Shown here piece by piece: positions 1 to 15,979 of a DNA stretch of 42,856 nt (position 1 is the first letter of the stretch; the number at the start of each line of letters is the position of its first letter). Source of the DNA: a virus; IMG/VR virus record IMGVR_UViG_3300025483_000027, positions 1 through 42,856 of that record. The stretch is one strand, 5' to 3'. The notes beneath the pieces were generated by a model that was given only the letters and a program-made list of their open reading frames with translations, searched no databases and was not told the origin of the DNA. A program made the position numbers and the translations under genes.

Positions 1-3000
1 TAAGTTAGCTAATGCTGCTTCTTCTTCTGCTGTTAGTTCTTCTTTTTGTTCTTTTGAAAGATTTTCTGTTTTATCAATAATACTATTAATAACTATCTCT
101 TTACTTCTTATAGTACCTAATACTCTAGGAAGAAGTTTTTCATAGAAGTCTTTTTCATTAAGATTGTCTACTATTGTAAATAAACTTTTGTCTGTCTTAA
201 TAAAATCATTCAGCATTAAGAATGTCATCTCTTGAATAGTGTCTGATGTTTGTCTGTCACTTAATGTCTTAAGTCTAAACTCAGAGTCTGATGTGGCAAA
301 CGCATCCTCTATATCTATAATACCTTCTTGGGCCATAGAAAGCTGTGTAGAATATGGTATACGTTTCTTGTAATATCCACTACCTATACGCTTAAATAAC
401 TCATCTGTAAAACTTTGTGATTTATCACCAAGTAAAGCTTTTTCAATAAACTTTTTAAGTTGTCTAAATAGTTTAGCAATTCTAGCACCAAGACCTTTAA
501 CACCTTTCTTCTTTTGTATAAAATTTCTAAACTCCTCAGCTAGTTGTTCCTTGGTCTGAACTGGTGTAGCTTCAGTAAACTTAATTGTTTTACCTGTAGG
601 TCTATCTACAAACGTTCCTTTACGTGTTTTGAATTCATTAATTATGTCATTCTGCTCTTTAGAAGTTGTAAACATCTTCCATACAGCTTCAAACACTTCG
701 TGATATACTGTACCAGTTTCTGCATTCTCATATACATAAATAGCACCATCCTTAAACATACCCCAAGCTTGTCTACCATTAGTAGCTTGGATAATGTTCT
801 TAACTCTAAACACAGGAACGTTAGGAAAGTTTTTCTTTAACCAAGATTCTACATCTGTCCAGTTTTCTGATTCAAACATATCAATCTCTTGGTTAATCTT
901 AACACGTAAGTCTTCTGAATTAGCATCAGAGATTGCTTGATTGATTTGATCTTCTAAACTATCTATTTTCTGTTGAGCTTCAGCTTGTTGAGCAGGTGTT
1001 CCTATTACATCATCACCAATAGTAAATGTTGGCATTCCACTATCATCAATTTTTTCTACACTAACTTGTTGTGCAGGAGCTTTAGGTGCAGGTGCATCTT
1101 TTCCAACAATTGTAAATGTTGGGAGGCCACTATTATCAGTTTTGTCTTGATAGGCAGCTTGTGCTTTATTTTTTGTAAGTTGTGGAACAATAGCGTTATA
1201 TATTGTTTGCTTTATTAGTTGTTTGTAATCTTTTCCAGAAGCTTGTATAGTTTTAATTATCTCATCTAAGTTAGCACCTGATAACACTTGAATAGTTTCT
1301 TGGTGATTATCTATTGTTACGTTTGGAGAAGCTTTAAATAATATTTTCTTACCTTGTGGAGAAGTAAATGTGTTAGTTGTGTTGCCATCTAAAACAAATG
1401 ATGTCTTTTGCTTTATAGGAACATTAACAGTTTGTGCCTTTGGTTCTGGTATTACAAACTCATCAGCTGTGTTTGTTACATAGAAGTATACACCCAATCT
1501 ATTAAACTTACCTTCCTCTTTTGGTTGCATGTTTGTAAAGATAGGCAACTCAAAGTCTTCTCTTTTAGATCCATCAGGATTCTTGTTAGATAGAAGATAG
1601 CTTTGGTAGTTAGGCCATGTAATAGATTCAATACCTCCTTCTGAAGAAATACCTGTTATCTGCTCAAAAGATCTATTAATATCCTTTGTTTTGTACGCAG
1701 TGACATTATTGTATATGTTCTCCAGCTCATTAATAATAAGTTCTCTGTTAGCTTCTAATGAGATAGGAGTAAATGTAAATCTTGTACCCTTAGATCCTAT
1801 AATTAAATCAGTTCTTGTAAAAGACACTGGACCTTCTTCAAATTTAACCTTTTCAAAGAATACACTGTTATTACCTGCATCCTTTCTATTATTTTGCTGA
1901 TCAGTTGGTACACCCCAATATGTTACACCTTTTAAAAATTCAAGAGCACGTATAGAACTATCACTAGTTATACCTTCGTCAGGGTTAATTAAGTTTTTAG
2001 AAACTTTTAATATAGCATCAAATATTGCTGTAGCTTCTTTCTTTGTGTGTAGTCTATTTCTAAGCTTTACATACCCATTTGGTGTTTCTAAGAACACAGC
2101 TCCAAGTGGTGTGTTATATGCAACAGTTCCCTTACTAACATTCTTATTAGTTGTTGGAACATATAAAACTAAATCATCTTGTAAATCTACACCATCAACT
2201 AGTCCTGCATCTTGTACAGATGTTCTAGCGTCTTTATCAATCTGAGGAATACCAAAAGATGCTTCAATCTCTTGTGGTATACCTAACGCTGTTTGCTCTA
2301 GTATATTATCTCTTCTTTCCTTGTACTGTTTATTGATTACATCCTTCACCTCTTGAGGAGTGTCCTCTCTGAACATCTCTCCATTTCTAAAACCAGCTTC
2401 AGGTATTGCCTGGAAGATAGCATTCTCTAACAAAGGTTGTCCTTGAGGTATAGGTTGTCCATCAACACCAACTACTTCTCCATTCTCATTAACCATCACC
2501 ATAACAATCATTGAGTCTTTATACTTCTCAATAATTTCAGGATCTCCGTCTAATATGTATTCAATTACACCTGGTAAAAGTTGTTCTTGTGTCTTAGATG
2601 TTATAAATAAACCACGTATCTTGTCTCTGTTTTCAAATGAATTTAAGTCTAGTCCAAATTGGTTAGATCTAATTTGATGATCCTTTCCTGTTTCAGGAGC
2701 CACTGTAGCTCTGTATATAATCTCATTAGACTTTTTAGCTACAGGTTCAAAGTTTGTTTCAAAAGAATTAGTAGGTGTTCCCTTGTCTGCAGTAGCCATC
2801 ACTTGATTAAGCTTAGCTGCTGCTTCTTGCTCTTGCTTTTGCTGTTCAAGATATTCATTCATGACAGAATCAAACCTATCTGTAATAATCTTTCTAGCTT
2901 TATATTCAGTCCTTAAGTCAACTAAGTCTTTTTCTATTTGTTTTACATTATTAATAGACTCTAAAAGACCAGCTTCATCTACTGTACCTTGTTTTGATAA

Positions 3001-6000
3001 ATCAACTGTAAGGGCAAAGTTGGCCATCTCTTGTTTTAAAAGAGGCCACGTTTCTTGTAAATTCTCTCCAGTTGTTATTTGATCTAGTAAATCGCTTAAA
3101 TATTGTGAGTAATCTTGATCAACTATATATGTTTTCTTAAGTGTCTTTCTAAATAACTTAGCTGCTGACTTAATAGCTTTCTCTGCACTCTTTGAAAGTT
3201 TCTTAGCTGCAGATAGAGCGTTGTTTAAGTTCTTACCGTTATCAACTAATAAAGCTACCTGTCTTTTAAGTTCTCTTAAGAACTCTCCACTGTCTTCAGG
3301 AGCATCAGTAATTTGATTAGCAAAGTCTTGGAAGTAGGATATGTTAAGTTCAAGTTCTTCTTTCTGACTATTAAGACTATCAATCTCAGATTCTACATCA
3401 GCTTGCATAGCTGTAAGATTGTTAAGTGCTTTTGTAAACACCTTTGTAGCTTTTGAGAAGTTAAGCTTAATCTTAGGACCAGTTGGACCAGCCTCTTTCA
3501 TTTTAGCTATGTCCTCTAAGTCTTCTTTTATCTTAGTGAGTTTTTCAGTTTGTTGTGCAAGTTTTTTATTTGTCTCTTCTAAACTCTCTTTAGCTTCTTC
3601 ACCTAATTGTGTAAGCACTTCAAGTCTAGCCTCTCTATTCTTAGCAAGTGTAGCTTTCTGTGCCTTTATTTCTGATGGAGACATAAATCCTATTCTAGAG
3701 TCTTCCTGCTGTTGGTTCTCTACAAATTCATCAGTGTTAGATATTCTAGGTTTATCAAAATCTTTTTGTGCAACAAAATGAGAATAATTAAGTTGTATTT
3801 TTGCCACCTTACCTTTTGCTGTTAAGTATACAAAATAAAGTTTACCATCTTGATATTCAAGTCTACCTCTTCTTTCACCACCAAGGTTTTTACCAAAGTT
3901 AAATTTAAAAATTTCGTTTCTATGATTGTAATAATAGTTAGCTGTTTTGTTGTTTTTTAAGGTACTAACTTTACCTATCTTAAAGTTTTCAAGAACATCT
4001 GCAGAAACATTCTTCACCTCTCCATTCTGAGTTTTTATTTCTAATGTTCCATCTTCATTTACCTTCTGTACTACAAATTGAGAAATAGGTACAGGAGCAT
4101 CTAAAGGATCTTTAGCATAATCCACACCTTTACCAACAAAGTATGAAGTGTTTAATTCAACATCTATATCACCTTGTTTAGTCTTAACTGAAATAGTTTC
4201 AACAGGACCTGTTACAGGAGCATCTTCCTCTATTGGGGCTTCTGAGAAGTTACCAGGGTTTTCTTTTATATTTTGATAAGCTTTTAAGAATGATTGTCTT
4301 CTTAATGCAAGTTCTGATATATCTTCTAATGATTGAGCAAGTGTTTCTTTTTCTTCCTCAATAATATCCATTTGTTTTATGGATGTAATAGCTTCATTAA
4401 ATGCTTCTGAGTTACCAGTAATAAGTTGGTCTATAACCTCAGACGTATTAATACCTGAAGCTGTAAGAGGACCCATTATATCTAGTATCCTTTGATCATA
4501 ATCTGCCACTTTAGTAGCAGTATATAACATTTTATTAATTACATCATTACTGTATACAGGTGTTCCATTTTCATCTACTTGTCCTGAATAACGTAAGTTA
4601 AGTGATTGCCATAAAGACTTTACATTATCTGCGGTTTGTTCAAAGCGATTAAGTCTTTCTAAATATGCTTCTCTTGTATCACCTTCAAGGGCTTTACCTT
4701 CAACTTGCAGTTGTGCAAAACCTTCTTCTGTACTAGCAAGTTTTTTATACTCGTTTATGTCAGCTCTTACTAAATCATATCTACCATATTTAATTCTAGG
4801 TGTAAGATAATTAGTAATGTAATCAGCTTCTAAATCTTTACTGTTTAAAATATCACCATCTTTAACAGCTTGTTCTCTTTCTTGTTGTAATACAGTTCCT
4901 CTATTTACAGCATCAATAGTTTCTTTTGTAAAGTCTGACAGGTTAGCATTATTAAATTGATCAAGTGCTTGAGCTGTATTTTTTCTCATTGCCTTGTCTT
5001 GCATAAATCTACCTCTTCCTAACATTAAAGATCCAGAAATTCCACCAATAAGAGCATTCTTAGCACCCTCATCACTAAACGCACCTTTTGTAATACCAAC
5101 ACCAATTGAATTTAGCCAACTAGTAGCCTCGCCATTCCGTGCTTTATTATAATAGTCTTGTGTAGTTACAGTAGCACTATATTGACTCACCTCTTCAAAA
5201 GCTTCTGATATAGAAAATGTATAAGGTCTTATTTTGTTTAATTTAGAAAGAGCTGGATATTTTACTTTTGGTTTTATGAATTTACCTCCTTCATATGCAA
5301 TGTCATCTATCTCTCTAACAAGTCCATTAATAACACCCTTCTCTCCCTTATATGTACTCCCTAATATCTTTGGGAATTGAATGTAGTTTGTAGCTGTAAG
5401 TAACCCAACGTTAGCAAAGAACGTAGCGTTACCTGACTCTTCTACAGTATCATTAATTTCTTGTAAAGCAGAACCTGTTGGTACTATGCCATATTTTTCT
5501 ACATGTTCATCAATAAGCTCTTGTCTAAACTCATTACTACTATGTAAAGCTTCTATACCTGCTTCACCAGTTGTAGCTAACCCAGCAACAACAGCCCTAC
5601 CTGCAGGATTTAATGTATTATAGTTAGATAAAAATTTGTCAGACAGCCCTCTTAGCTTACCGTATGTATCAGCCACTTTACTTGCACCTGATGCAATTCC
5701 AGCTTCTGTAGCAGCAAGTGTTTCTGCACTTTTACCAATAGAAAATAATCTTGATGCATATGGGAGAGACTTTAATATATTTGTATATACACCTCCAGAC
5801 AAAGAAGCACCAGCAGCAAACCCTAAGTTCTTTACAACACCATCCCAAAGAAAGTTTCCTGTCATCCAGTATTTAGGAGAATACCAATTTGCATCTCTTT
5901 CTGCAGCTGTGTAATAGTTTGGTAATTCATCTTCTGCTTCCTTATTTAACTTATCTAACCCTCGATTAAAATCATTATCATAGAATGAAGAAAACTTACC

Positions 6001-6474
6001 GTCTGAAATTGCTTGGTAAGTTCCATTAACAAGTCCTACAGTTGATTGTAAGAATGTTGTACCTGTAAGTAATAATCCTTTACTAACACCATTTACCATC
6101 TTAGCACCAAAACTTTGATCTTGTGCAGCAGCATCTTCATTATCAAAGTTCCCTGGCATAAAATAATCATATCTACCAGATTCATTAGCTGCATATTCAT
6201 CTAAAGTTCTTACCTTCCCACCTCCAGAAGAGTCACGTTTAGTATTTGCAAAGTTTATAAGATTTGCAAGAGATGATGTGTTTTGGTTAGATGGTGCACT
6301 TATGTTTTTATATGGGTTTACATACGGTACATTTGGTAAAGGAGATGTATCAACTGTATTAGTTTTATATCCACCAAATCGTTGTTGCATATATTGCTCG
6401 TCTAATAATGGACTATTAGAAGAAGGTTTTATAGCACTTCCAACTTGAGCCTTTGGTAAATTTTTTTTTGCCAT
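1..6474 (-). CDS. Giant virion protein, partial, with a degenerate zincin site
   Basis: The frame is open from an ATG at 6474 to the window edge (2158 codons, no stop), so the C-terminus is missing. The start lies one base after the TAA of the upstream gene. Residues 7-12 read PKAQVG, a motif shared with two neighbouring giant proteins. Gly/Ala-rich hydrophobic stretches occur near 205-228 and 465-485. Long charged coiled-coil-like segments lie around 950-1200. The peptide D(N/D)SG(L/M)PTFTI appears twice near 1780-1820. At 1925-1929 is HEVFE, followed by LAEEF near 1980. This resembles a gluzincin site (HExxH plus a downstream Glu), but the second His is Glu. In crAss-like phages the giant genes at this end encode capsid cargo, including the virion RNA polymerase. 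I see no DxDxD polymerase motif in the visible part; it could lie beyond the edge. Role as an injected cargo protein is inferred. Confidence 0.85.
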   Translation of the reverse strand, partial: MAKKNLPKAQVGSAIKPSSNSPLLDEQYMQQRFGGYKTNTVDTSPLPNVPYVNPYKNISAPSNQNTSSLANLINFANTKRDSSGGGKVRTLDEYAANESGRYDYFMPGNFDNEDAAAQDQSFGAKMVNGVSKGLLLTGTTFLQSTVGLVNGTYQAISDGKFSSFYDNDFNRGLDKLNKEAEDELPNYYTAAERDANWYSPKYWMTGNFLWDGVVKNLGFAAGASLSGGVYTNILKSLPYASRLFSIGKSAETLAATEAGIASGASKVADTYGKLRGLSDKFLSNYNTLNPAGRAVVAGLATTGEAGIEALHSSNEFRQELIDEHVEKYGIVPTGSALQEINDTVEESGNATFFANVGLLTATNYIQFPKILGSTYKGEKGVINGLVREIDDIAYEGGKFIKPKVKYPALSKLNKIRPYTFSISEAFEEVSQYSATVTTQDYYNKARNGEATSWLNSIGVGITKGAFSDEGAKNALIGGISGSLMLGRGRFMQDKAMRKNTAQALDQFNNANLSDFTKETIDAVNRGTVLQQEREQAVKDGDILNSKDLEADYITNYLTPRIKYGRYDLVRADINEYKKLASTEEGFAQLQVEGKALEGDTREAYLERLNRFEQTADNVKSLWQSLNLRYSGQVDENGTPVYSNDVINKMLYTATKVADYDQRILDIMGPLTASGINTSEVIDQLITGNSEAFNEAITSIKQMDIIEEEKETLAQSLEDISELALRRQSFLKAYQNIKENPGNFSEAPIEEDAPVTGPVETISVKTKQGDIDVELNTSYFVGKGVDYAKDPLDAPVPISQFVVQKVNEDGTLEIKTQNGEVKNVSADVLENFKIGKVSTLKNNKTANYYYNHRNEIFKFNFGKNLGGERRGRLEYQDGKLYFVYLTAKGKVAKIQLNYSHFVAQKDFDKPRISNTDEFVENQQQEDSRIGFMSPSEIKAQKATLAKNREARLEVLTQLGEEAKESLEETNKKLAQQTEKLTKIKEDLEDIAKMKEAGPTGPKIKLNFSKATKVFTKALNNLTAMQADVESEIDSLNSQKEELELNISYFQDFANQITDAPEDSGEFLRELKRQVALLVDNGKNLNNALSAAKKLSKSAEKAIKSAAKLFRKTLKKTYIVDQDYSQYLSDLLDQITTGENLQETWPLLKQEMANFALTVDLSKQGTVDEAGLLESINNVKQIEKDLVDLRTEYKARKIITDRFDSVMNEYLEQQKQEQEAAAKLNQVMATADKGTPTNSFETNFEPVAKKSNEIIYRATVAPETGKDHQIRSNQFGLDLNSFENRDKIRGLFITSKTQEQLLPGVIEYILDGDPEIIEKYKDSMIVMVMVNENGEVVGVDGQPIPQGQPLLENAIFQAIPEAGFRNGEMFREDTPQEVKDVINKQYKERRDNILEQTALGIPQEIEASFGIPQIDKDARTSVQDAGLVDGVDLQDDLVLYVPTTNKNVSKGTVAYNTPLGAVFLETPNGYVKLRNRLHTKKEATAIFDAILKVSKNLINPDEGITSDSSIRALEFLKGVTYWGVPTDQQNNRKDAGNNSVFFEKVKFEEGPVSFTRTDLIIGSKGTRFTFTPISLEANRELIINELENIYNNVTAYKTKDINRSFEQITGISSEGGIESITWPNYQSYLLSNKNPDGSKREDFELPIFTNMQPKEEGKFNRLGVYFYVTNTADEFVIPEPKAQTVNVPIKQKTSFVLDGNTTNTFTSPQGKKILFKASPNVTIDNHQETIQVLSGANLDEIIKTIQASGKDYKQLIKQTIYNAIVPQLTKNKAQAAYQDKTDNSGLPTFTIVGKDAPAPKAPAQQVSVEKIDDSGMPTFTIGDDVIGTPAQQAEAQQKIDSLEDQINQAISDANSEDLRVKINQEIDMFESENWTDVESWLKKNFPNVPVFRVKNIIQATNGRQAWGMFKDGAIYVYENAETGTVYHEVFEAVWKMFTTSKEQNDIINEFKTRKGTFVDRPTGKTIKFTEATPVQTKEQLAEEFRNFIQKKKGVKGLGARIAKLFRQLKKFIEKALLGDKSQSFTDELFKRIGSGYYKKRIPYSTQLSMAQEGIIDIEDAFATSDSEFRLKTLSDRQTSDTIQEMTFLMLNDFIKTDKSLFTIVDNLNEKDFYEKLLPRVLGTIRSKEIVINSIIDKTENLSKEQKEELTAEEEAALANL

Positions 6475-6475
6475 A

Positions 6476-9127
6476 TTATTGCATTTTTTTAGATGCTTCT
6501 TCTAATTCTTTAAGTAAAGAATTAGGAATTTCTTTATTTGTATTATTTAAAAGTTGCCAAATTGCTTCAGTAGAAATTTGTTGTAACGTTGGCACAAGAG
6601 AGGCTTTATCTATTCTAGCTGGAAATAAATAATTTTCTAATACAAATTTTTTAGTTACTGGATCATATACATTTAATTGAAGCTTAAATGAATCAGAATC
6701 TTTAGGGTTTGCATCACTTACAATATTACCACTCAACCCATAGTACTTTACATTTGGAAAGTCAGTTGGACCGCTTAAGAATGAATTATCTAATGTAGTG
6801 TTGTATTCTCCATCTGTAGATGTTGAATAATATGATAGTGGAGTTTTTTGATATATAAGCTCACCTTTTTCATTCGGAGCCTGAAATAAAGGAGATGGTG
6901 TAGACAACATCTTTGAAAGATACATTTGATTAAATGATGATACAGCAGGACTAGCTTCAAATCTATCTCCAAATGCTTCATAATATTGATCTTTACCTAT
7001 TGGAATTGTAATATCTGTATCATCACTTTTTGTAACAATAATATTATAATTACCATCAGAATTTGTAGTTACTAATGCGCTTTCTAATTTATTTGCAGCT
7101 GTCATTATATCGCTAGATGATACATCTAAACCTGTTCCAAGACCTCCACTTCTTTCAGCTATTATAGCTAAAGAATTAAGAACAGGCCTAAACTGATCTT
7201 TTTGTTTTGCATCTTCAAGAGGAATTCTATATGCCTGTTCTTGATTAATCAAATAATTTTGTTGGTAATAATTTTTAATATATTCATTTTTATCTTTATC
7301 AATTTTCTTTGTCAGTTTTATATTTTCATTCTCTAATTTATTAACTAGATTCTTTACATCTGACCCAATTTTATTAAATTCTTTACTACCTTTAGAAGCA
7401 GCCCATATTGTATATAAACCGTAATCTTGATCACTAAGACGACCTTCTTCAAAATCTTTTCTTGCCTTATCTTCACCATAGTCTATACTAAATTTACCTC
7501 CAGTAGGAAGGCCTACAGAACTTCCTCCTCCATCAGCAATTATTGTTGAAGTAAAGTAGTCTCTTCCAAATTTTTTAAACTTTAAAATTGCTTCAGTAGA
7601 ATTATATCCATTTATTTCTAGATTTTTTAAATCTTCGGAAAGACCTTCAAATAATTGCTTATCAAAAATTTTATCAGCTTCAAGATTAGCTCTCGTTATA
7701 ATATCATTCTGAACAGTTAATTGTTTTTGTTGAAGAATATATTGATTTAATTGTCCTCTTTTGTCCCAAGATATTGAATCTGAACTAGTTTCATATGAAA
7801 TTGAGTCTTGTTTAAAAGCATTACTAGATAACTTGTACTTGTTCTTATAATTATTTTTTAGTGAAAGTGTAGAGTTTTTTGTCTTATCTCGATTAGCTTC
7901 CATTGCAGCAATAACTTCTACACTAGTGGCATCTTTATTTGTAGGAAGTGAAATTGATCCGTATGGATCTTTTAAAAGCTTTAACTTATCTTGTTCTATT
8001 TCAAGTCTTTCATCATTATATCTTTGAGACTCAAGTAACTTAGCAGCTTCAATAGATGCATCTTGTGCTATTTTATCTCTTTTCATCTGCATTTGGGCAA
8101 ATGGATTAGTTTCATATGTTCTAATTGAACTTTCAGTAGAAAATGCATTTGCTGTATCTTCAAACCAATTTGTTGTGTATAATTGCACTTGTGAACCTTC
8201 AACGTCTCCACTTTCAAACCCTTTAGATATATTATCATATTCAGATTTTGTAAATTCAATCGCTAAGTCTATTTCATTTATCTGATTTTGTAATTTCTGT
8301 TTTTCAGTTGCACTTGCTGCAGAATTTTTAAGGTTGTTAAGCCTATCTCTTTCTTGAGAATACTTAGTAAATGTAGATGTATAACTTGCGTTTATATCGT
8401 TTGTGTAGCTATCAACTGAAGTATTTGAATATTTATATAATGCATCAGTTTGCATTTGTTCATAATCATCTGGTGACAGTCCTTGTTTCAATGCTGCTTG
8501 TATTCGCTCTTTACTGATTCCCTCAACTCTAACTCTAGTAATAGCATCTACTAGTTGCCCTTTTTCATTAAATGCAACATCATATCCTGTAGTCTTTTTA
8601 CCTAATGTTTTTATAATATCTCTAGCAGAGTTATTATAATCTTTATATGGACGATATGTGGAATTAAAAGAAGCTTCATTATCACCGTCCATCCAAGAAT
8701 TTACTTCCTTATTAAACCTAAAATCGTTAGATGCACTACCCTTTCCTTCTTGAATTAATTTGCCTCTATTTTCTAAAGCTTTTTTATATAATGAAGATGA
8801 CATAACATCTTTTATTACTCTAGGATCTTTGGCTATTTGGTTAGTCATTCCATTAACAGAGTTGACTAACTGAAAATTAGAAAAGTCTCCACCAGCAACA
8901 GAAGATAGCTGACTACCTAGTTGATTAAGTTTTGATTGTAAGTATTCTTTATCTTGAGGCCTAACAACATCAAGTCCAGCAACATTATCAATGCTTTGCT
9001 GTATTCTTTGTACTCCTTGATCATAACGTTGCTGTTTATACATACCAACTTTAGCCATAGCCTCAACAGGTAATGTTTGCACGTAAGGATTAAACTTTAA
9101 GTTAGCTGGGTCTTTATATGATGCCAT
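6476..9127 (-). CDS. Large helical virion protein (crAss-like cargo block)
   Basis: This encodes 883 residues. The N-terminus (FNPYVQTLP, then AKVGMYKQQRYDQGV and a conserved-looking AGLDV) matches my memory of a protein found in the same place in many crAss-like phages. The body is rich in Lys, Glu, Asn and Gln and looks mostly helical or coiled-coil. I see no catalytic motif, signal peptide or membrane segment. It is followed one base later by the giant protein gene. Unlike its neighbours it has a consensus Bacteroidota promoter right before its ATG, so it and the giant gene may be transcribed separately from the genes upstream. Role as an internal virion or ejection protein is inferred from position. 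It lacks the KAQxG motif of its neighbours. Confidence 0.8.
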   Translation of the reverse strand: MASYKDPANLKFNPYVQTLPVEAMAKVGMYKQQRYDQGVQRIQQSIDNVAGLDVVRPQDKEYLQSKLNQLGSQLSSVAGGDFSNFQLVNSVNGMTNQIAKDPRVIKDVMSSSLYKKALENRGKLIQEGKGSASNDFRFNKEVNSWMDGDNEASFNSTYRPYKDYNNSARDIIKTLGKKTTGYDVAFNEKGQLVDAITRVRVEGISKERIQAALKQGLSPDDYEQMQTDALYKYSNTSVDSYTNDINASYTSTFTKYSQERDRLNNLKNSAASATEKQKLQNQINEIDLAIEFTKSEYDNISKGFESGDVEGSQVQLYTTNWFEDTANAFSTESSIRTYETNPFAQMQMKRDKIAQDASIEAAKLLESQRYNDERLEIEQDKLKLLKDPYGSISLPTNKDATSVEVIAAMEANRDKTKNSTLSLKNNYKNKYKLSSNAFKQDSISYETSSDSISWDKRGQLNQYILQQKQLTVQNDIITRANLEADKIFDKQLFEGLSEDLKNLEINGYNSTEAILKFKKFGRDYFTSTIIADGGGSSVGLPTGGKFSIDYGEDKARKDFEEGRLSDQDYGLYTIWAASKGSKEFNKIGSDVKNLVNKLENENIKLTKKIDKDKNEYIKNYYQQNYLINQEQAYRIPLEDAKQKDQFRPVLNSLAIIAERSGGLGTGLDVSSSDIMTAANKLESALVTTNSDGNYNIIVTKSDDTDITIPIGKDQYYEAFGDRFEASPAVSSFNQMYLSKMLSTPSPLFQAPNEKGELIYQKTPLSYYSTSTDGEYNTTLDNSFLSGPTDFPNVKYYGLSGNIVSDANPKDSDSFKLQLNVYDPVTKKFVLENYLFPARIDKASLVPTLQQISTEAIWQLLNNTNKEIPNSLLKELEEASKKMQ

Positions 9128-9134
9128 AATTTAA

Positions 9135-9166
9135 CAAATGTAATGTGATTATATTATTTATCCAAA
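9135..9166 (-). promoter_or_regulatory. Bacteroidota-type promoter, TTTG-N20-TAnnTTTG
   Basis: On the minus strand TTTG (9166-9163) is followed by 20 bases and then TACATTTG (9142-9135). This fits the published Bacteroides housekeeping sigma consensus (-33 TTTG, -7 TAnnTTTG, spacing about 19-21). The -7 box ends only 7 bases before the ATG at 9127, so the predicted transcript would be leaderless or nearly so. It sits in the 80-base gap between the 1206- and 883-residue genes, one of the few real gaps in the minus-strand operon. Activity is inferred. Confidence 0.65.
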
Positions 9167-9207
9167 CACCAATAATTGATTTCGGTAAAGTTTTATAATC
9201 AGTTTTA

Positions 9208-12200
9208 TTATAAATTTCTTATTGCTTTTAGAATATTACTATTCTTATTATTCTTTGTAATTTTCTTTCCATACTTTGCAGAATTAGAATCTTCTTCTTC
9301 CTCTTCTGTGCTCTCTTTCTTCTTTTTAAATTGTTGGGATATTTGACCTAGCACATTAGCCTTATTCTGTAAAGTTGGATTTAGTACATTTAAAGGTGAA
9401 TAACCTGTTGAACCTTGTCCAGGTATATTAAACATAGCAGGTTGTTGAACTTCTGTTTGGTAGTTTTCATTAAATCTAAAAGTTGGATACATATTAGCAT
9501 ACACTTTACGTATTGCATTATCTCTTTTATTTTGAGAATATTTATTACTAATAGAACTTAATATGTCTATATTTTGCGTACGTGTTTTAGATGTGGCTTC
9601 AGCTTGCCTATCTGCTTGCTTGTCAAATATACCTAAGTTCATCATACGTGCCTTATTTATAGTATCTAGGTTTGATGAATAAATATTATCCTTCATTCTT
9701 TGATTTTGAATAAATTCAAACTCGTTAATTTTATTTAATGCTTCATATGTTGGAGCTTGAGCCAACGCAAGTGCTGCTGGGTTATTTTCTAGAACAGGGT
9801 TTCTTTGAAGTGCTCTACTTTGAGCAATTATATCATTCTTTGCAGATTGAAGACTTATATCATAAGGAACTCTTAGGTTAGGTTGAAAACCTTGTGCTTG
9901 TACAGGTTGTACTTGATTGGTAGCTAATGCATAATATTCCCCAAGAAGTTGGTTAGAATCAAGAGGTACATCATCTATTGGACGTTGAAAGTTAACATAA
10001 GGAAATACAGGTTTACTGTCAACAGGTTCAGTTTCAGTTGTAGTTTCTAGATCTCCAACCACCACTCTCGATTGCGTAGGGATAGAACCTTCTTCTGCTG
10101 GAGTAAATCTAGCACTAGCTGTTTGTTCTCCAAATTTTTTATCAACTTTTATTCTTGTAGAGTCACCAGATTCTTCAGCTCTTTTGTTAAACTCCTTTTG
10201 ATAACGTTCTACGTCAGCTTCATTATTTGGATTAAAGTTTTCCCAATCAAACCAAGGGTTAGCTGCTTTAGCTGTCTCAAATTCTTCTTGAGTTACTTTA
10301 CCATATAATCCTGTTTCTTCATCTTTACTTTGTCCTCCTGGAACTTTTTCAAGAGCTTTGATGGACAGTTCAACAGCTTCTTTTGCATCTCCTTCAGTTT
10401 TTATGTAAACCTTCGGATTACTTTTATCTTGGATATAACCCTCTTCCAATAACTTTTCTGGAGTTTTATCTGTTTTAGGAATTGGTTTTTTATTAAAGTC
10501 ATCTTTTTTAACATTACCTGTTATACCTTCTTGGGCTTTAGGTATATCTTTTCCATACTTAGCCATTTTAGAATTTTCTATTCTCATAGGATCTTCTATC
10601 ATTTCACCTTTTTGAATAAACTTATTAGCATCTATACCATATTGGTCAAATGTTTCATTCATTGCATTTTGTAAGTCAGCTAATATATTCTTCTTATCAG
10701 CAATACTTTTTAGCTTCATGTCAGATCCTTTCAGTACAACATCTGCTGTATTTCTTTCAAGTTGTCCAAAAACTGTATCATTTGATTCTAACCCTAACTC
10801 AGAAACTTTCTCCATTCTTTTATTAATTTTAGCTTCATCTTTATTTAAAACATTACTTACGTAACCCTTAAACTTTTTACCTTTTGCTCTATCATCATTA
10901 ATTTCAGCTACATATTCTTCTGGAATTTTCATGTCTCCATATACAACTAAGTTTTCATCTCCTCCACCATCTCTCAGTTTCTGTGCTGGTTCATTTTCCA
11001 CTTCTACAGATGCTTGATTATTATTAACAGCATCTTTACCGTATGCAACACCTATTCCTGTTTGTCCTGTTTTAGGATCACGATTATTATGTGAGTTTCC
11101 ATTAAATTCAATACTCTCGCCACCAGCATAAGGATTGTAAGAAACTGTTTCAGCTTCACCTCCCCACAATGTTTTAAGTTCTCCACCCATCTTCATTGTA
11201 TCTAACATTGATGGATTTGTTGATATTCTACTTCCTCCATTTTTATATGAATTAAGTTCACCTCCGTTTTTTAGGTAAGATGCATAATTTGCTTGTACTG
11301 CTGGAGCAACAGAAGCAAATGCCATCTCATCAGTATATCTTTTAGTAAGTTCCTCTTGTCTATCTATTTTCTTATCAGTTGTATCAAGTAATCCACCAGC
11401 AATAGTTCCAAGAGCACCACCTATCGCACCACCTACAGGACCACCAACTAATGTACCTAATGTACCTCCAATTTTACTACCAACATTACTACCTGCATCA
11501 CTATCAGCACCAAACATTCTTGCAAAATTTGTACCAGCAGCACCAGCTTGACCACCACCATAAACAAAACCACCTCCTTTAAATTGTTTTTGTTGATTAG
11601 GGTCAACTATAGGCATATATTCACCAGTAAACATTCCACCGTGTTCAGCTTTTACATAACCACCATTCTCAAGAGCACTCATACTGTTTACTCTTTTTCT
11701 ATTAAGCATTCTATTATGTTCTAATTTTTCTTGCATGTTTTCATAGTAAGGTTGAAAATATGTAAATTCTCCTTTACCAAGAAGGTCATTTCCTTTTAGA
11801 TTTAAGTTTCTAGGTCCACCAACATTAAACATGTTTAAAAAATTACCTCCACCTTTCGCACTATACATACCTCCTTGTTTAGAAATAGCAGTTGTTCCTA
11901 CACCTTGAACAGGAAACATTGTTTCTCCTGTATATGAAAAATCTTCAGGACGTACATATTGCCTTTCTATTTTTTCAGGAGTTGTCTTAGATGCTTGTAA
12001 AGCAAGTTCAGATAATTGTTTATTTTGTTTTGCTTGAGCTAATTGTTGTTTTTGAGCTTTAAATTGATCTGAAATCTGCATAATATCACCTACTATAGGA
12101 GCTCCTACTTCATATATATCTTGAGCAGTTCCCATAAAGTCAAATTGATTATTAGGTATTTCAGTCATTGTAGGGTTAACATCAACAATATTAGGTGTAT

Positions 12201-12828
12201 CTATTCCAACAGTGTTAGGTGTATCTATTCCAACAGGAGTTATACCACTTGTAGCATATCCAATTTGAGCCTTTGGTGCTTCATGTCCCCATCCTTTTTT
12301 CTTAAGAGCTAAGTGTTCTTTATACGTTTTAGCCTTTTTACCTTTACCAGTTTTTGGATTGTACATCACATGTGGTGAAAACTTTCCACCATTTTTTGAG
12401 GAAACTGCACCTATAGCTTTAGCACTTGCTGATTGAACATTAGAATTAGAACCTAATTCACCAAGTTTATTTTTAGCCATAGATAACGTTGACATCATAT
12501 CACCTTGACTAGATTTTTGTGATTGTCCTGATTTAATAGCTTTTAACATTTCTTCAGATCTAAGTCTTTTCATCATGTCATCATAGCTTTCTTTACCTGT
12601 TAAATCAGCTACATTGTTATATAAAAACTCTTCATCTATACGAATAGGTTTAATATTAGATGTAGGAGATTGTATATTTGGAACAATAGTACCTACCTGA
12701 GCCTTCTTAGTTATAAATTTTTTTACAGCTTTTCCATGCTTTTTCATAAAGGCTTCCTCACTTGGAAACTTCTTGTAAAACTCTGCTTCAGACTTAACGC
12801 CTGCTATTTTTAAAAATTCAGATTTCAT
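9208..12828 (-). CDS. Large virion protein with KAQxG and GG motifs
   Basis: This encodes 1206 residues. KKAQVG (41-46), PKAQIG (185-190) and PKAQEG (763-768) are copies of a motif also seen in the two flanking KAQ-bearing genes. Between about 145 and 620 the chain is dotted with NGG/GGG-centred peptides (NGGKFSP, QGGMYSAKGGG, NGGYVKAEHGG, KNGGELNSYKNGG). Part of this stretch (about 415-475) is a Gly/Ala-rich region with alternating GG motifs. A 24-base tandem duplication gives a repeated VGIDTPN peptide near 199-214. The C-terminal part is charged and helical and ends in a Glu/Lys-rich tail. No catalytic motif is visible. By position and composition I infer a protein packaged in the capsid or tail and released on infection. 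The start is two bases past the 1049-residue gene's reading frame boundary on the upstream side. Confidence 0.82.
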   Translation of the reverse strand: MKSEFLKIAGVKSEAEFYKKFPSEEAFMKKHGKAVKKFITKKAQVGTIVPNIQSPTSNIKPIRIDEEFLYNNVADLTGKESYDDMMKRLRSEEMLKAIKSGQSQKSSQGDMMSTLSMAKNKLGELGSNSNVQSASAKAIGAVSSKNGGKFSPHVMYNPKTGKGKKAKTYKEHLALKKKGWGHEAPKAQIGYATSGITPVGIDTPNTVGIDTPNIVDVNPTMTEIPNNQFDFMGTAQDIYEVGAPIVGDIMQISDQFKAQKQQLAQAKQNKQLSELALQASKTTPEKIERQYVRPEDFSYTGETMFPVQGVGTTAISKQGGMYSAKGGGNFLNMFNVGGPRNLNLKGNDLLGKGEFTYFQPYYENMQEKLEHNRMLNRKRVNSMSALENGGYVKAEHGGMFTGEYMPIVDPNQQKQFKGGGFVYGGGQAGAAGTNFARMFGADSDAGSNVGSKIGGTLGTLVGGPVGGAIGGALGTIAGGLLDTTDKKIDRQEELTKRYTDEMAFASVAPAVQANYASYLKNGGELNSYKNGGSRISTNPSMLDTMKMGGELKTLWGGEAETVSYNPYAGGESIEFNGNSHNNRDPKTGQTGIGVAYGKDAVNNNQASVEVENEPAQKLRDGGGDENLVVYGDMKIPEEYVAEINDDRAKGKKFKGYVSNVLNKDEAKINKRMEKVSELGLESNDTVFGQLERNTADVVLKGSDMKLKSIADKKNILADLQNAMNETFDQYGIDANKFIQKGEMIEDPMRIENSKMAKYGKDIPKAQEGITGNVKKDDFNKKPIPKTDKTPEKLLEEGYIQDKSNPKVYIKTEGDAKEAVELSIKALEKVPGGQSKDEETGLYGKVTQEEFETAKAANPWFDWENFNPNNEADVERYQKEFNKRAEESGDSTRIKVDKKFGEQTASARFTPAEEGSIPTQSRVVVGDLETTTETEPVDSKPVFPYVNFQRPIDDVPLDSNQLLGEYYALATNQVQPVQAQGFQPNLRVPYDISLQSAKNDIIAQSRALQRNPVLENNPAALALAQAPTYEALNKINEFEFIQNQRMKDNIYSSNLDTINKARMMNLGIFDKQADRQAEATSKTRTQNIDILSSISNKYSQNKRDNAIRKVYANMYPTFRFNENYQTEVQQPAMFNIPGQGSTGYSPLNVLNPTLQNKANVLGQISQQFKKKKESTEEEEEDSNSAKYGKKITKNNKNSNILKAIRNL
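12191..12237. repeat. 24-base tandem duplication inside the 1206-residue gene
   Basis: Two adjacent copies start at 12191 and 12215 and match over about 22 of 24 bases (each begins TTAGGTGTATCTATTCCAAC). The unit length is a multiple of three, so the frame is kept and an eight-residue peptide (core GIDTPN) is repeated. The near identity points to a recent duplication. Confidence 0.85.
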
Positions 12829-12829
12829 A

Positions 12830-15800
12830 TTAGTGGTATTTATCTAACCAGCCTCCTGGTTGTGAAGTGTTATAATTCGTAAATTTAGTTAATTTAGTTA
12901 ATTGGTTCAAATCTACCAAAGATTTTCCATCTTTAGCAACTATATTGTTTTGCTGCATTTGTGGTCTAGTAGCAATGGTATTCATTATTTCAATAAAGTC
13001 TTCTTCTGACTCAGTATTTTCCATTAAGTCTTTGAAGTGTCTATTGTATTTTATTCTAGTGTTTTCTTTTGCCTTCTGTAAGTCTTCTTTTGTAAAATCT
13101 TTCTTCTTACTGTCATATATATCTTCTTCTTGTAATAAGTACCTAAAGGGTTGTAATCTGTTAATGTATTCTGTAGGTCTTGTATAGTAGAATGTTTCTT
13201 TGGGTATGTCATAAGGATTTTGTTTCAACTTAGGCATTAAGAAATCTAATGTAGTTTGTGGTATTCTTTTACCACCCTCATCTACAGCATGTCCCATTTC
13301 ATGTAGAGGTATTGTATTATAACTCCAAGGACCTTGTCTACCTTCTGAATATTCAGGTCTTAACATAATCTTACCTGGGTATTCATCAGCATTATGTACA
13401 CCTTGTGTGGAACCTGGTTCAGGAGATATCTTACTTGATTCAGGAAGGAAACCAATAGGTGTACTTCTCATGTTCATCAATCGTACCCATCTCTCATTTG
13501 CTAACTCATCAGCATTCATCTCAGGAAACTCTTTACCAAGTCTTTCTAAATACTTGTCAGATCTTATGTAGCTGTCAAACCATTTCTTTTGCTTTTGACC
13601 TTCTACATTCATTCCTTTCTGAGCCATAGGGTACTCTGTTTCTAGAATTTCATCATTAGTATACAGTTCTTGCAATTGTTTATTTTGCTGCTTATTGAAT
13701 CTTTCAGTTATATTCTTAAGTTTTTTAGTTGCTCGTTTCTTATTTTTTATTGTTCTTATTTTCCCAGCAGGATTTGAAGAGCTGTTTGTAGCTATAACTA
13801 AACTTCCATCATCTTGTAAAGTAGCAGACTTTCTTCTCACCTTATCATTTTTTGTAACTTTCTTAGATATTCTATTATCTGACTCGAAAGTAGCACGACT
13901 TTTTCTTTTTACTTTATTGTTGTTCACTTCCTTTACTGAAGAAGTTGTAACTATTACATCATCATCTCCTATTTCATTCTCACCTTGAGCCATAGGATAC
14001 TCTGTTACAGAGCTACCATCAAACTTGTAATCTTTTCCTGGTTGCATCATCTTTGTGTCACCAGTGTCAGATATTCCAAGGACAGGGTAGTTAACACCCT
14101 TCATTGTTATATTGTTGGAGTTTATTTTAGTTACCTCTCCAGGGTGTGCCCATTGTCCTCTATCATCTTCTATCACACCACCGTTCTCATACTTAGATAA
14201 CCATCCACCATTCTTATTTTGTGAAGCAGCACCAAGTCCTACACCAACAGGGGTAGCTGCAGGAAGAATCTTAAATAGATTCTTAAATGCTTCTTTATCT
14301 TTTATTAAATTAAAGAACTTTTTATCTACTGTTAAGTTACCTGCTTTACCTTCTCTAATAACCTTATCAATCATATTATCAGAAACATCGTATGTGCCAG
14401 GTTTAAAATACTCTGGGTAATTATCTCTAATCTCCATCACCCTTGCATCCACCTCAGTCTCTTTTGCTAAGTAGTTTAAATATTTTTGCTCTTTTTTTGG
14501 AAGCATATCAAACTCTCTCTTACTTAACGATCCTCTAGGATTAATAACTTGTCTTATTTGATCTTTAGTTTCTTTATTAAGTGCTCTATTTCCAGAAGTC
14601 ATAGCATGACGATTCTCATGACCTATTGCTGTATATATTTTAAAATTTCTTTCTGCATCTCCTGGTATTAAATTTTCAAACCTGTCTAAATTTAAGTTTG
14701 CTCTATTATTTAAACCACTATAAAATCCTAAAGTTTTTGGATTTTTTGCATAATAATCAATATCATCACCTATTGGACGTAATACTTCTGTAAATTTACC
14801 AGTTTCTTGAATCTGCCTTAAGTTTGATCTTCCTACATTTGGAGCAGCTATATTTGTATTACTTTGAATTACCTTACCATAATAATTAAGTTCTTTTGTT
14901 AATTGTTGAATTTCATCATCAATACTAGCTACCACATTACTTTTTCCAAGACGCTTGTAGATTTCTTTTGATTCAACGAGATCATCTAACCTTAAAGCTG
15001 TTTGTTCTCCTTTATTCAGTACTTCTTGATTATATTTTTTATATTGTTTAAATAATTTAGGATTTATAGAAGGTTTCATTACGTTTTCATATCTAGCTTG
15101 AAACCCTGGGGTATTTGTCCACTCTAAAGCACGATTTCTTGCAGCAACTACAGGACTTTGTGTTAATTCTGTAGCTAGTCTATATTTTCCAAGATTACCT
15201 CTAATGGAACTAATTGTGCCTTTAGTTAGGTTTTTTGCAATACCTAAACCAACTAAATTAGTTGGATCTGCTATTACATCCATAGTTGTGTTTAAAGAAC
15301 CTCCTAAATCCCAACCAGGTTTATCTTCAAATCCCATTGTATCAGATGGTAATCTTTGTGACTCAGGTGAAATAACATTTAAAAAATTATAATCATTTCC
15401 TCTTATAGCCTCTACACTCTCAACCATAAGAGATTGAGGAGCCTGTAATGCAGATAAAGGTTGTTTAACTAACATACCTGTCACCATATCTATTGTGTCT
15501 TCAGCAAGTCCTCTTTTTGTTTGAGCGGCTCTTCTTACACCTCTACCAATGGAGCCATCATCATTAAAGTATTTTCTTTGCTCTGCACTTAAATCATTAT
15601 AGTAAGGATACTTCTTATAGTCTACCCCTGAGTACATTAGTACTTCATCTAGTTGATTAGGGACATCAGCAAATGTACCTTCCTCATATGCTTTTTTATA
15701 TTCAGGAGTGCCATACATAACTGTACCATCCTGAGCTTTCTTAGGTTCTTCAGAAGATATTCGAGACATACCTGCATACATCATACCTGATGCACCTGGA

Positions 15801-15979
15801 AGACTTCCTCCCATAGCAAACTTATCTAACCAACCACCATTAATCTTTTTCAATGGAATAGCACCACTAGCAATAGTTCCAAAAAACTTCTTTTGTTTTT
15901 CAGTGAGAGGTTTACCTTTTACGTAACCATCTTTAATTATTTTTTTAGCTTTAGTTGCTGATAAACTTTTCTTACTCAT
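12830..15979 (-). CDS. Virion protein with two HExxH zincin-like peptidase domains
   Basis: This encodes 1049 residues. The first site is HENRH (454-458) with a candidate third ligand Glu at 509 in ETEVDAR. The second is HEMGHAVD (893-900) with Glu937 in RPTEYINRL. Both fit gluzincin metallopeptidases (two His ligands, catalytic Glu, downstream Glu ligand). Around them lie GGWLDKF (48-54), GGWLSKY (591-597) and GGWLDKY at the extreme C-terminus, plus KKAQDG (80-85), YPMAQGE (661-667) and YPMAQKG (783-789). The stretch 598-660 (ending in a Thr-Glu-Tyr-Pro context) matches my memory of a segment common in crAss-like virion proteins. Zinc peptidases in this position could process other cargo proteins or degrade cell-envelope or host proteins after entry; the substrate is not evident. 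The ATG overlaps the TAA of the upstream gene by one base. Confidence 0.82.
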   Translation of the reverse strand: MSKKSLSATKAKKIIKDGYVKGKPLTEKQKKFFGTIASGAIPLKKINGGWLDKFAMGGSLPGASGMMYAGMSRISSEEPKKAQDGTVMYGTPEYKKAYEEGTFADVPNQLDEVLMYSGVDYKKYPYYNDLSAEQRKYFNDDGSIGRGVRRAAQTKRGLAEDTIDMVTGMLVKQPLSALQAPQSLMVESVEAIRGNDYNFLNVISPESQRLPSDTMGFEDKPGWDLGGSLNTTMDVIADPTNLVGLGIAKNLTKGTISSIRGNLGKYRLATELTQSPVVAARNRALEWTNTPGFQARYENVMKPSINPKLFKQYKKYNQEVLNKGEQTALRLDDLVESKEIYKRLGKSNVVASIDDEIQQLTKELNYYGKVIQSNTNIAAPNVGRSNLRQIQETGKFTEVLRPIGDDIDYYAKNPKTLGFYSGLNNRANLNLDRFENLIPGDAERNFKIYTAIGHENRHAMTSGNRALNKETKDQIRQVINPRGSLSKREFDMLPKKEQKYLNYLAKETEVDARVMEIRDNYPEYFKPGTYDVSDNMIDKVIREGKAGNLTVDKKFFNLIKDKEAFKNLFKILPAATPVGVGLGAASQNKNGGWLSKYENGGVIEDDRGQWAHPGEVTKINSNNITMKGVNYPVLGISDTGDTKMMQPGKDYKFDGSSVTEYPMAQGENEIGDDDVIVTTSSVKEVNNNKVKRKSRATFESDNRISKKVTKNDKVRRKSATLQDDGSLVIATNSSSNPAGKIRTIKNKKRATKKLKNITERFNKQQNKQLQELYTNDEILETEYPMAQKGMNVEGQKQKKWFDSYIRSDKYLERLGKEFPEMNADELANERWVRLMNMRSTPIGFLPESSKISPEPGSTQGVHNADEYPGKIMLRPEYSEGRQGPWSYNTIPLHEMGHAVDEGGKRIPQTTLDFLMPKLKQNPYDIPKETFYYTRPTEYINRLQPFRYLLQEEDIYDSKKKDFTKEDLQKAKENTRIKYNRHFKDLMENTESEEDFIEIMNTIATRPQMQQNNIVAKDGKSLVDLNQLTKLTKFTNYNTSQPGGWLDKYH

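Follow-up and report, generated by a model that had tools for sequence, protein, structure and literature searches.

In phage T4, the internal proteins IPI-III and Alt, some of them basic, carry a short N-terminal capsid-targeting sequence that directs their packaging and is then removed by the prohead protease, so that the mature internal proteins are trimmed. In SPN3US, the A-x-E motif of the gp245 system is cleaved C-terminally and is found in head and ejection proteins, with multiple copies in the propeptides (PMC10052503). Within the phiCrAss001 tail, short helical segments, of which one is still unassigned, hold the cargo in place, and the cargo protein gp45 was modelled as a single chain running unbroken from the capsid to the tail (PMC10172136). 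Polyvalent proteins, known from phages and conjugative elements, carry several disparate, widely swapped catalytic domains per polypeptide, and their processing by zincins has been predicted; the portions of that account available to us name no junction or tag motif (PMC5512222). How crass-like phages select the proteins that enter the capsid and tail is an open question, which a short, searchable, cargo-predicting peptide would make testable.

The T4 capsid-targeting peptide and the SPN3US A-x-E site would be the nearest functional precedents for the AQxG peptide described here, although neither matches it in sequence. As in T4, a short N-terminus is common to otherwise unrelated small proteins, which here are presumably packaged. 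Unlike the T4 sequence, AQxG also occurs in internal copies, and no S78 or ClpP-family prohead protease was found in 12 contigs. Like A-x-E, it is short and keeps a small residue at a fixed place, and in SPN3US it is likewise ejected proteins that carry the motif (PMC10052503). Unlike A-x-E, which is also present in capsid and scaffold substrates, AQxG was absent from the scaffold-like p418, the major capsid protein p517 and the portal protein p859 analyzed here.

Phage group and gene order

The window, i.e. the whole 42,856-base virus record IMGVR_UViG_3300025483_000027, belongs to the Crassvirales or a sister group. Its major capsid protein matches PF23898 Crass_capsid (5e-33), another protein matches PF25702 CrAss_Ring_2 (2e-18), and the genes follow the crassvirus order of terminase, portal, scaffold-like p418, capsid, rings and tail tube, continuing with the muzzle-like p1789, p290 and then the 1049-aa, 1206-aa, 883-aa and giant proteins (Table 1). 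The terminase was closest to those of Leptolyngbya phage Lbo-JY46 and Cellulophaga phages phi17:2 and phi4:1, with gut crassviruses next. Downstream of the muzzle protein, the order is the one that phiCrAss001 shows for its C1/C2 and RNA polymerase proteins (PMC10172136). The phi4:1 relatives of the giant, 1206-aa and 1049-aa proteins are virion proteins according to an MS/MS-based annotation. The motif is confined to families with such relatives, in agreement with the earlier view of its carriers as virion cargo.

Identification of the 1206-aa protein as the crassvirus cargo protein C1 by homology was rejected, as its position alone agrees: no homology to crAss001 gp45 was detected by hhalign (probability 41%, 16 columns only), and no PDB sequence or fold matched. 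The 883-aa protein was likewise rejected as a crAss001 gp46 homologue, no homology being detected. Similar to phiCrAss001 cargo proteins, the 1206-aa protein contains a glycine-rich, membrane-segment-like stretch, which would fit an ejection protein that forms a channel.

Table 1. Coordinates of the genes, motif copies and related loci discussed in the text (aa, amino acids)
Feature	Sequence	Position	Strand	Remark
Giant protein	Window	1..6474	-	Open at window edge; N-terminal motif copy
PKAQVG, giant protein residues 7-12	Window	6439..6456	-	N-terminal copy
AQEG, giant protein residues 2048-2051	Window	322..333	-	In SMAQEG; unlisted by the earlier note
1206-aa protein	Window	9208..12828	-	Relative of phi4:1 gp40 / phi17:2 gp41; gene position as for crAss cargo protein C1
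KKAQVG, 1206-aa protein residues 41-46	Window	12691..12708	-	Site 1
PKAQIG, 1206-aa protein residues 185-190	Window	12259..12276	-	Site 2
PKAQEG, 1206-aa protein residues 763-768	Window	10525..10542	-	Site 3; AKYG just before
Glycine-rich stretch of 1206-aa protein, GSNVGSKIGGTLGTLVGGPVGGAIGGALG	Window	11389..11511	-	Membrane-segment-like
1049-aa protein	Window	12830..15979	-	Mosaic, multidomain, polyvalent-protein-like; two HExxH motifs
KKAQDG, 1049-aa protein residues 80-85	Window	15725..15742	-	
PMAQGE, 1049-aa protein residues 662-667	Window	13979..13996	-	Degenerate copy; PMAKDG in relatives
PMAQKG, 1049-aa protein residues 784-789	Window	13613..13630	-	Just N-terminal of last HExxH module
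AQxG, 1789-aa muzzle-like protein residue 20	Window	22165..22175	-	Sole window AQxG outside the three large proteins
Mosaic member of 1049-aa family	L004	5,560..9,996		
Mosaic member of 1049-aa family	L072	10,312..16,011		
1246-aa protein	L003	10,001..13,738		Insert at about residues 740-800
Lys-rich cluster	L113	17,675..19,066		Beside DUF6321 and RGLWDNIRANKGSGKK proteins
Lys-rich cluster	L121	6,138..9,123		Beside DUF6321 and RGLWDNIRANKGSGKK proteins
Lys-rich cluster	L127	4,493..6,266		Beside DUF6321 and RGLWDNIRANKGSGKK proteins
Lys-rich cluster	L135	12,492..14,720		Beside DUF6321 and RGLWDNIRANKGSGKK proteins
Lys-rich cluster	L144	16,213..18,468		Beside DUF6321 and RGLWDNIRANKGSGKK proteins

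Recurrence of the motif

All copies of the (P/K)(K/M)AQxG peptide named by the earlier note were found at the residues given there. The pattern [PK][KM]AQxG occurred six times in the three large window proteins and was absent from the 23 others; shuffled sequences contained 0.02 copies on average, and none of 2000 shuffles reached six. Because this pattern was picked after the data had been seen, the relatives served as the independent test. In 110 loci from related contigs, KAQxG was found 96 times in the 1206-aa family (3.4 in shuffled sequences), 64 times in the 1049-aa family (1.6) and 13 times in the giant family (1.2), and not once in seven neighbouring families (p1789, p290, p883, p413, p322a, p241 and p161), among them the muzzle-like proteins with 158,515 residues and the 883-aa family with 40,274 residues. 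The enrichment in putative cargo proteins, proposed earlier as a check, was thus observed far above shuffled sequences, and the 883-aa neighbour lacked the motif, as had been claimed, both in the window and across its family. Under a stricter null model, in which non-redundant sets were shuffled inside 40-residue blocks and local composition was kept, AQxG was counted 87 times in the 1206-aa family against 20.6 expected and 114 times in the 1049-aa family against 11.8. FQxG, YQxG and MQxG were likewise raised in the latter. The giant family showed a small excess (14 against 8.1) resting on the N-terminal copy. The recurrence of the motif is real and not due to chance.

Form, conservation and position of the motif

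The residues flanking AQxG vary widely, as in WLDKYDVAQDG, EIPMAQNG, KTMASAQNG, YVPQAQEG and FKKAQIG, which defines A-Q-x-G as the core; FQxG, YQxG and MQxG occur as variants, and in some copies Q is replaced by N, K, M or E. The pattern first reported was therefore real, yet too narrow, also because small basic proteins turned out to be tagged. Site 1 of the 1206-aa family has K in 35/35, K in 33/35, A in 34/35, Q in 29/35, a variable residue and G in 32/35 aligned sequences, followed by an aliphatic residue three positions after the motif; the spacer in front of it differs in length by several residues while the motif is kept. Site 2 is common to close relatives and weakly conserved across the family, and site 3 retains A in 25, Q in 19 and G in 28 of 34 sequences. 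In the 1049-aa protein, A82, Q83 and G85 of KKAQDG are nearly invariant in 14 relatives. An N-terminal LPKAQxG or similar is present in one clade of giant-protein orthologues and absent in others, indicating that this copy is not essential for the giant protein. The internal SMAQEG copy recurs as TQLSMAQEG in the relative G009.

In an AlphaFold model of the 1206-aa protein, the three sites all map to low-confidence linkers that join ordered regions, or to the edges of such linkers: site 1 at the end of a predicted helix and site 3 in a low-pLDDT linker flanked by two ordered regions. The model of the 1049-aa protein was poor and usable only for the low confidence at its motif sites. In six related contigs (L111-L146), the Ala, Gln and Gly codons at KAQxG match the background, which points to selection on the peptide.

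Motif at module junctions of a polyvalent-like family

The 1049-aa family is mosaic, with stretches 70-90% identical between otherwise different members. Its modules include an ADP-ribosyltransferase (ART-PolyVal, PF18760), an amidase, LysM and HExxH; ART-PolyVal scored above the cut-off in one member (L004) and Amidase_2 together with LysM in another (L072). Both serve as examples of the mosaic structure, and recurrent NGGWLDK(Y/F) linkers were seen at module starts. The window copy contains two HExxH motifs (HEMGH at residue 893 in the C-terminal module), and no Pfam family scored above the cut-off there. Judged by its predicted domains, which are disparate, catalytic and widely swapped, the family is polyvalent-like. 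The likeness extends to ART-PolyVal and HExxH modules encoded beside virion genes (PMC5512222).

Among 359 module ends in this family, 42% lay within 5 residues of an [AFY]QxG, compared with 5.8% of random positions and about 4% for two control patterns at the same ends. Unlike in the polyvalent proteins as described in the portions available (PMC5512222), the junctions here share one short motif, which non-polyvalent proteins carry as well. For polyvalent proteins, AQxG might be the junction signal that has so far been missing.

An N-terminal tag on small basic proteins

Six related contigs of 112-119 kb, chosen independently of the pattern, were scanned in full. They revealed a second concentration of the motif, in small ORFs starting with M-A-x-[I/V]-K-K-A-Q-x-G. 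Of the 29 ORFs of 60-300 aa that are very basic and rich in Lys, ten begin with this tag, and KAQxG occurred 33 times in these contigs as opposed to a single copy of the mirror sequence GxQAK. A search of the whole collection for the N-terminal tag retrieved 111 stretches encoding about 110 distinct small proteins with a pI of about 10-12, nearly all at 10 or above; 98 of the 111 contigs were recognisably related to the phage group of the window. The sequences right behind the tag formed 42 groups, i.e. at least 42 different sequences, which indicates one short N-terminus on many different bodies. When the bodies were grouped by any homology, only 6 groups resulted, as distant stretches were often common. 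The observation is accordingly broader than the earlier note, as many small basic proteins of related genomes are tagged too. G009, which resembles the window most among the relatives sampled, has no cluster of small tagged proteins, and the window does not span that region.

Clusters of small Lys-rich proteins, several with an N-terminal KKAQxG, were seen beside a DUF6321 protein (PF19846) and RGLWDNIRANKGSGKK proteins in five contigs (Table 1). The proteins of these clusters are possibly DNA-condensing and packaged.

A possible docking tag or cleavage site

By its placement, the motif is found where one would expect a signal for sorting or processing, and AQxG has the look of an address label, or else a cutting site, on packaged proteins that has so far gone undescribed; no description of it was found in the literature searched. 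Of the earlier reading as a packaging tag, docking site or cleavage site, the real and selected short motif was upheld, whereas the neighbouring zincins did not hold up as its protease. We tentatively favour a docking or sorting tag for cargo over a cleavage site. AQxG, typically [I/V/F]-K-K-A-Q-x-G, would then be a portable short linear motif marking proteins carried in the particle, present as a single N-terminal copy in the giant and small basic proteins and repeatedly at the module edges of the 1206-aa and 1049-aa proteins. Some internal part of the procapsid, portal or tail that occurs in repeated copies, e.g. the acidic p418 or a ring, would bind it, and binding would load each protein or module ahead of DNA packaging. 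We infer the presence of the tagged small proteins in the virion, the binding of the tag and the identity of the binder. This proposal draws on the enrichment in three families with zero counts in seven others, the lack of the motif in the scaffold-like, major capsid, portal and terminase proteins of the window, the conservation of KKAQxG despite varying spacer length, the same N-terminus on so many different small proteins, its share of the basic ORFs with the strong bias over the mirror sequence, and the selection at the peptide level. Multiple copies per protein fit avidity, the basic tag would suit the acidic p418, relatives of the three large proteins are found in the phi4:1 virion, and the segments that hold phiCrAss001 cargo in the tail offer an analogy (PMC10172136). 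The N-terminal copy missing from many giant-protein orthologues, the replaceable Q and the lack of AQxG clusters in cargo proteins of two Suoliviridae genomes speak against it.

The placement at junctions makes proteolytic processing a serious rival, which we regard as possible though somewhat doubtful. A phage or host protease, acting during maturation or after injection, would take a short propeptide off the N-terminus of the giant protein and the small ones and cut the 1049-aa and 1206-aa proteins into their modules, comparable to the trimming of T4 internal proteins or SPN3US ejection proteins. Copies close to module ends and in low-confidence linkers at domain edges would suit such a site, N-terminal cuts would free propeptides of about 10 residues, and the SPN3US site is similar in having small residues a fixed distance apart (PMC10052503); processing was also predicted for polyvalent proteins (PMC5512222). 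However, 38 of 65 members of the 1049-aa family have no HExxH, and their AQxG density is no lower than in the remainder (2.99 vs 2.26 per 1000 aa), so zincins were rejected as the dedicated protease. The lack of S78 and ClpP-type proteases in the 12 contigs also counts against cleavage; the controls of a search for S77 proteases gave no match. A head-maturation protease between the portal and capsid genes was rejected, since p418, which lies there, is acidic and scaffold-like, and both its position and its composition are similar to those of crAss001 gp31. Moreover, the classic substrates, i.e. the scaffold-like, major capsid and portal proteins of the window, have no motif, phiCrAss001 gp45 was modelled as one unbroken chain (PMC10172136), and Q can be replaced.

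Sites at domain edges and module junctions, the helix that ends at site 1 and a fixed Gly suited to a helix cap would also be compatible with a passive hinge, neither bound nor cut, that allows swapped modules to fold on their own and to pass through the tail. We consider such a helix-capping linker improbable, because it would have no use for one and the same peptide at the very start of dozens of unrelated small proteins and leaves the retention of K, K, A, Q and G across changing spacer lengths unexplained. Least credible is a DNA-level relic, in which short homology promoted module exchange by recombination. Copies do lie at mosaic breakpoints, but this reading is largely refuted by codon diversity: the Ala, Gln and Gly codons are at genome background and the copies differ in sequence, about 12 shared bases with variable codons are a poor substrate, and N-terminal tags require no exchange.

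Returning to the docking tag, a universal cargo code would be its furthest extension, and a rather unlikely one: a single phage-encoded receptor for K-K-A-Q-x-G would load the giant protein, channel-type proteins, swappable effector modules and protamine-like small proteins into the same particle. If so, carrying the tag would by itself be enough to have a protein delivered into the next host cell. A cargo-predicting peptide would also flag many small proteins as likely packaged and injected.

Distribution in other phages and minor observations

Unlike the proteins described here, the cargo proteins of the two Suoliviridae genomes (gut crassviruses) showed no AQxG clustering, so the motif is not general in Crassvirales. 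The only three AQxG of phi14:2 all lie in a single virion protein of 420 aa, and the phi17:2 relative of the 1206-aa protein contains four [FY]QxGG; with such small numbers, both are no more than suggestive.

The Lys of KAQxG is coded by AAA in 97% of the copies in the six related contigs (L111-L146), compared with 68% in the background. In the 1246-aa protein of L003, a short insert (IEIKPENRGKFTAWAKERNMSVAAAAKM...) resembles, by eye only, a segment of crAss001 gp45 (IKIKEKNKGKFTAYCGG...), and the inserted segment ends in KKAEEG at the position of the PKAQEG of the window.
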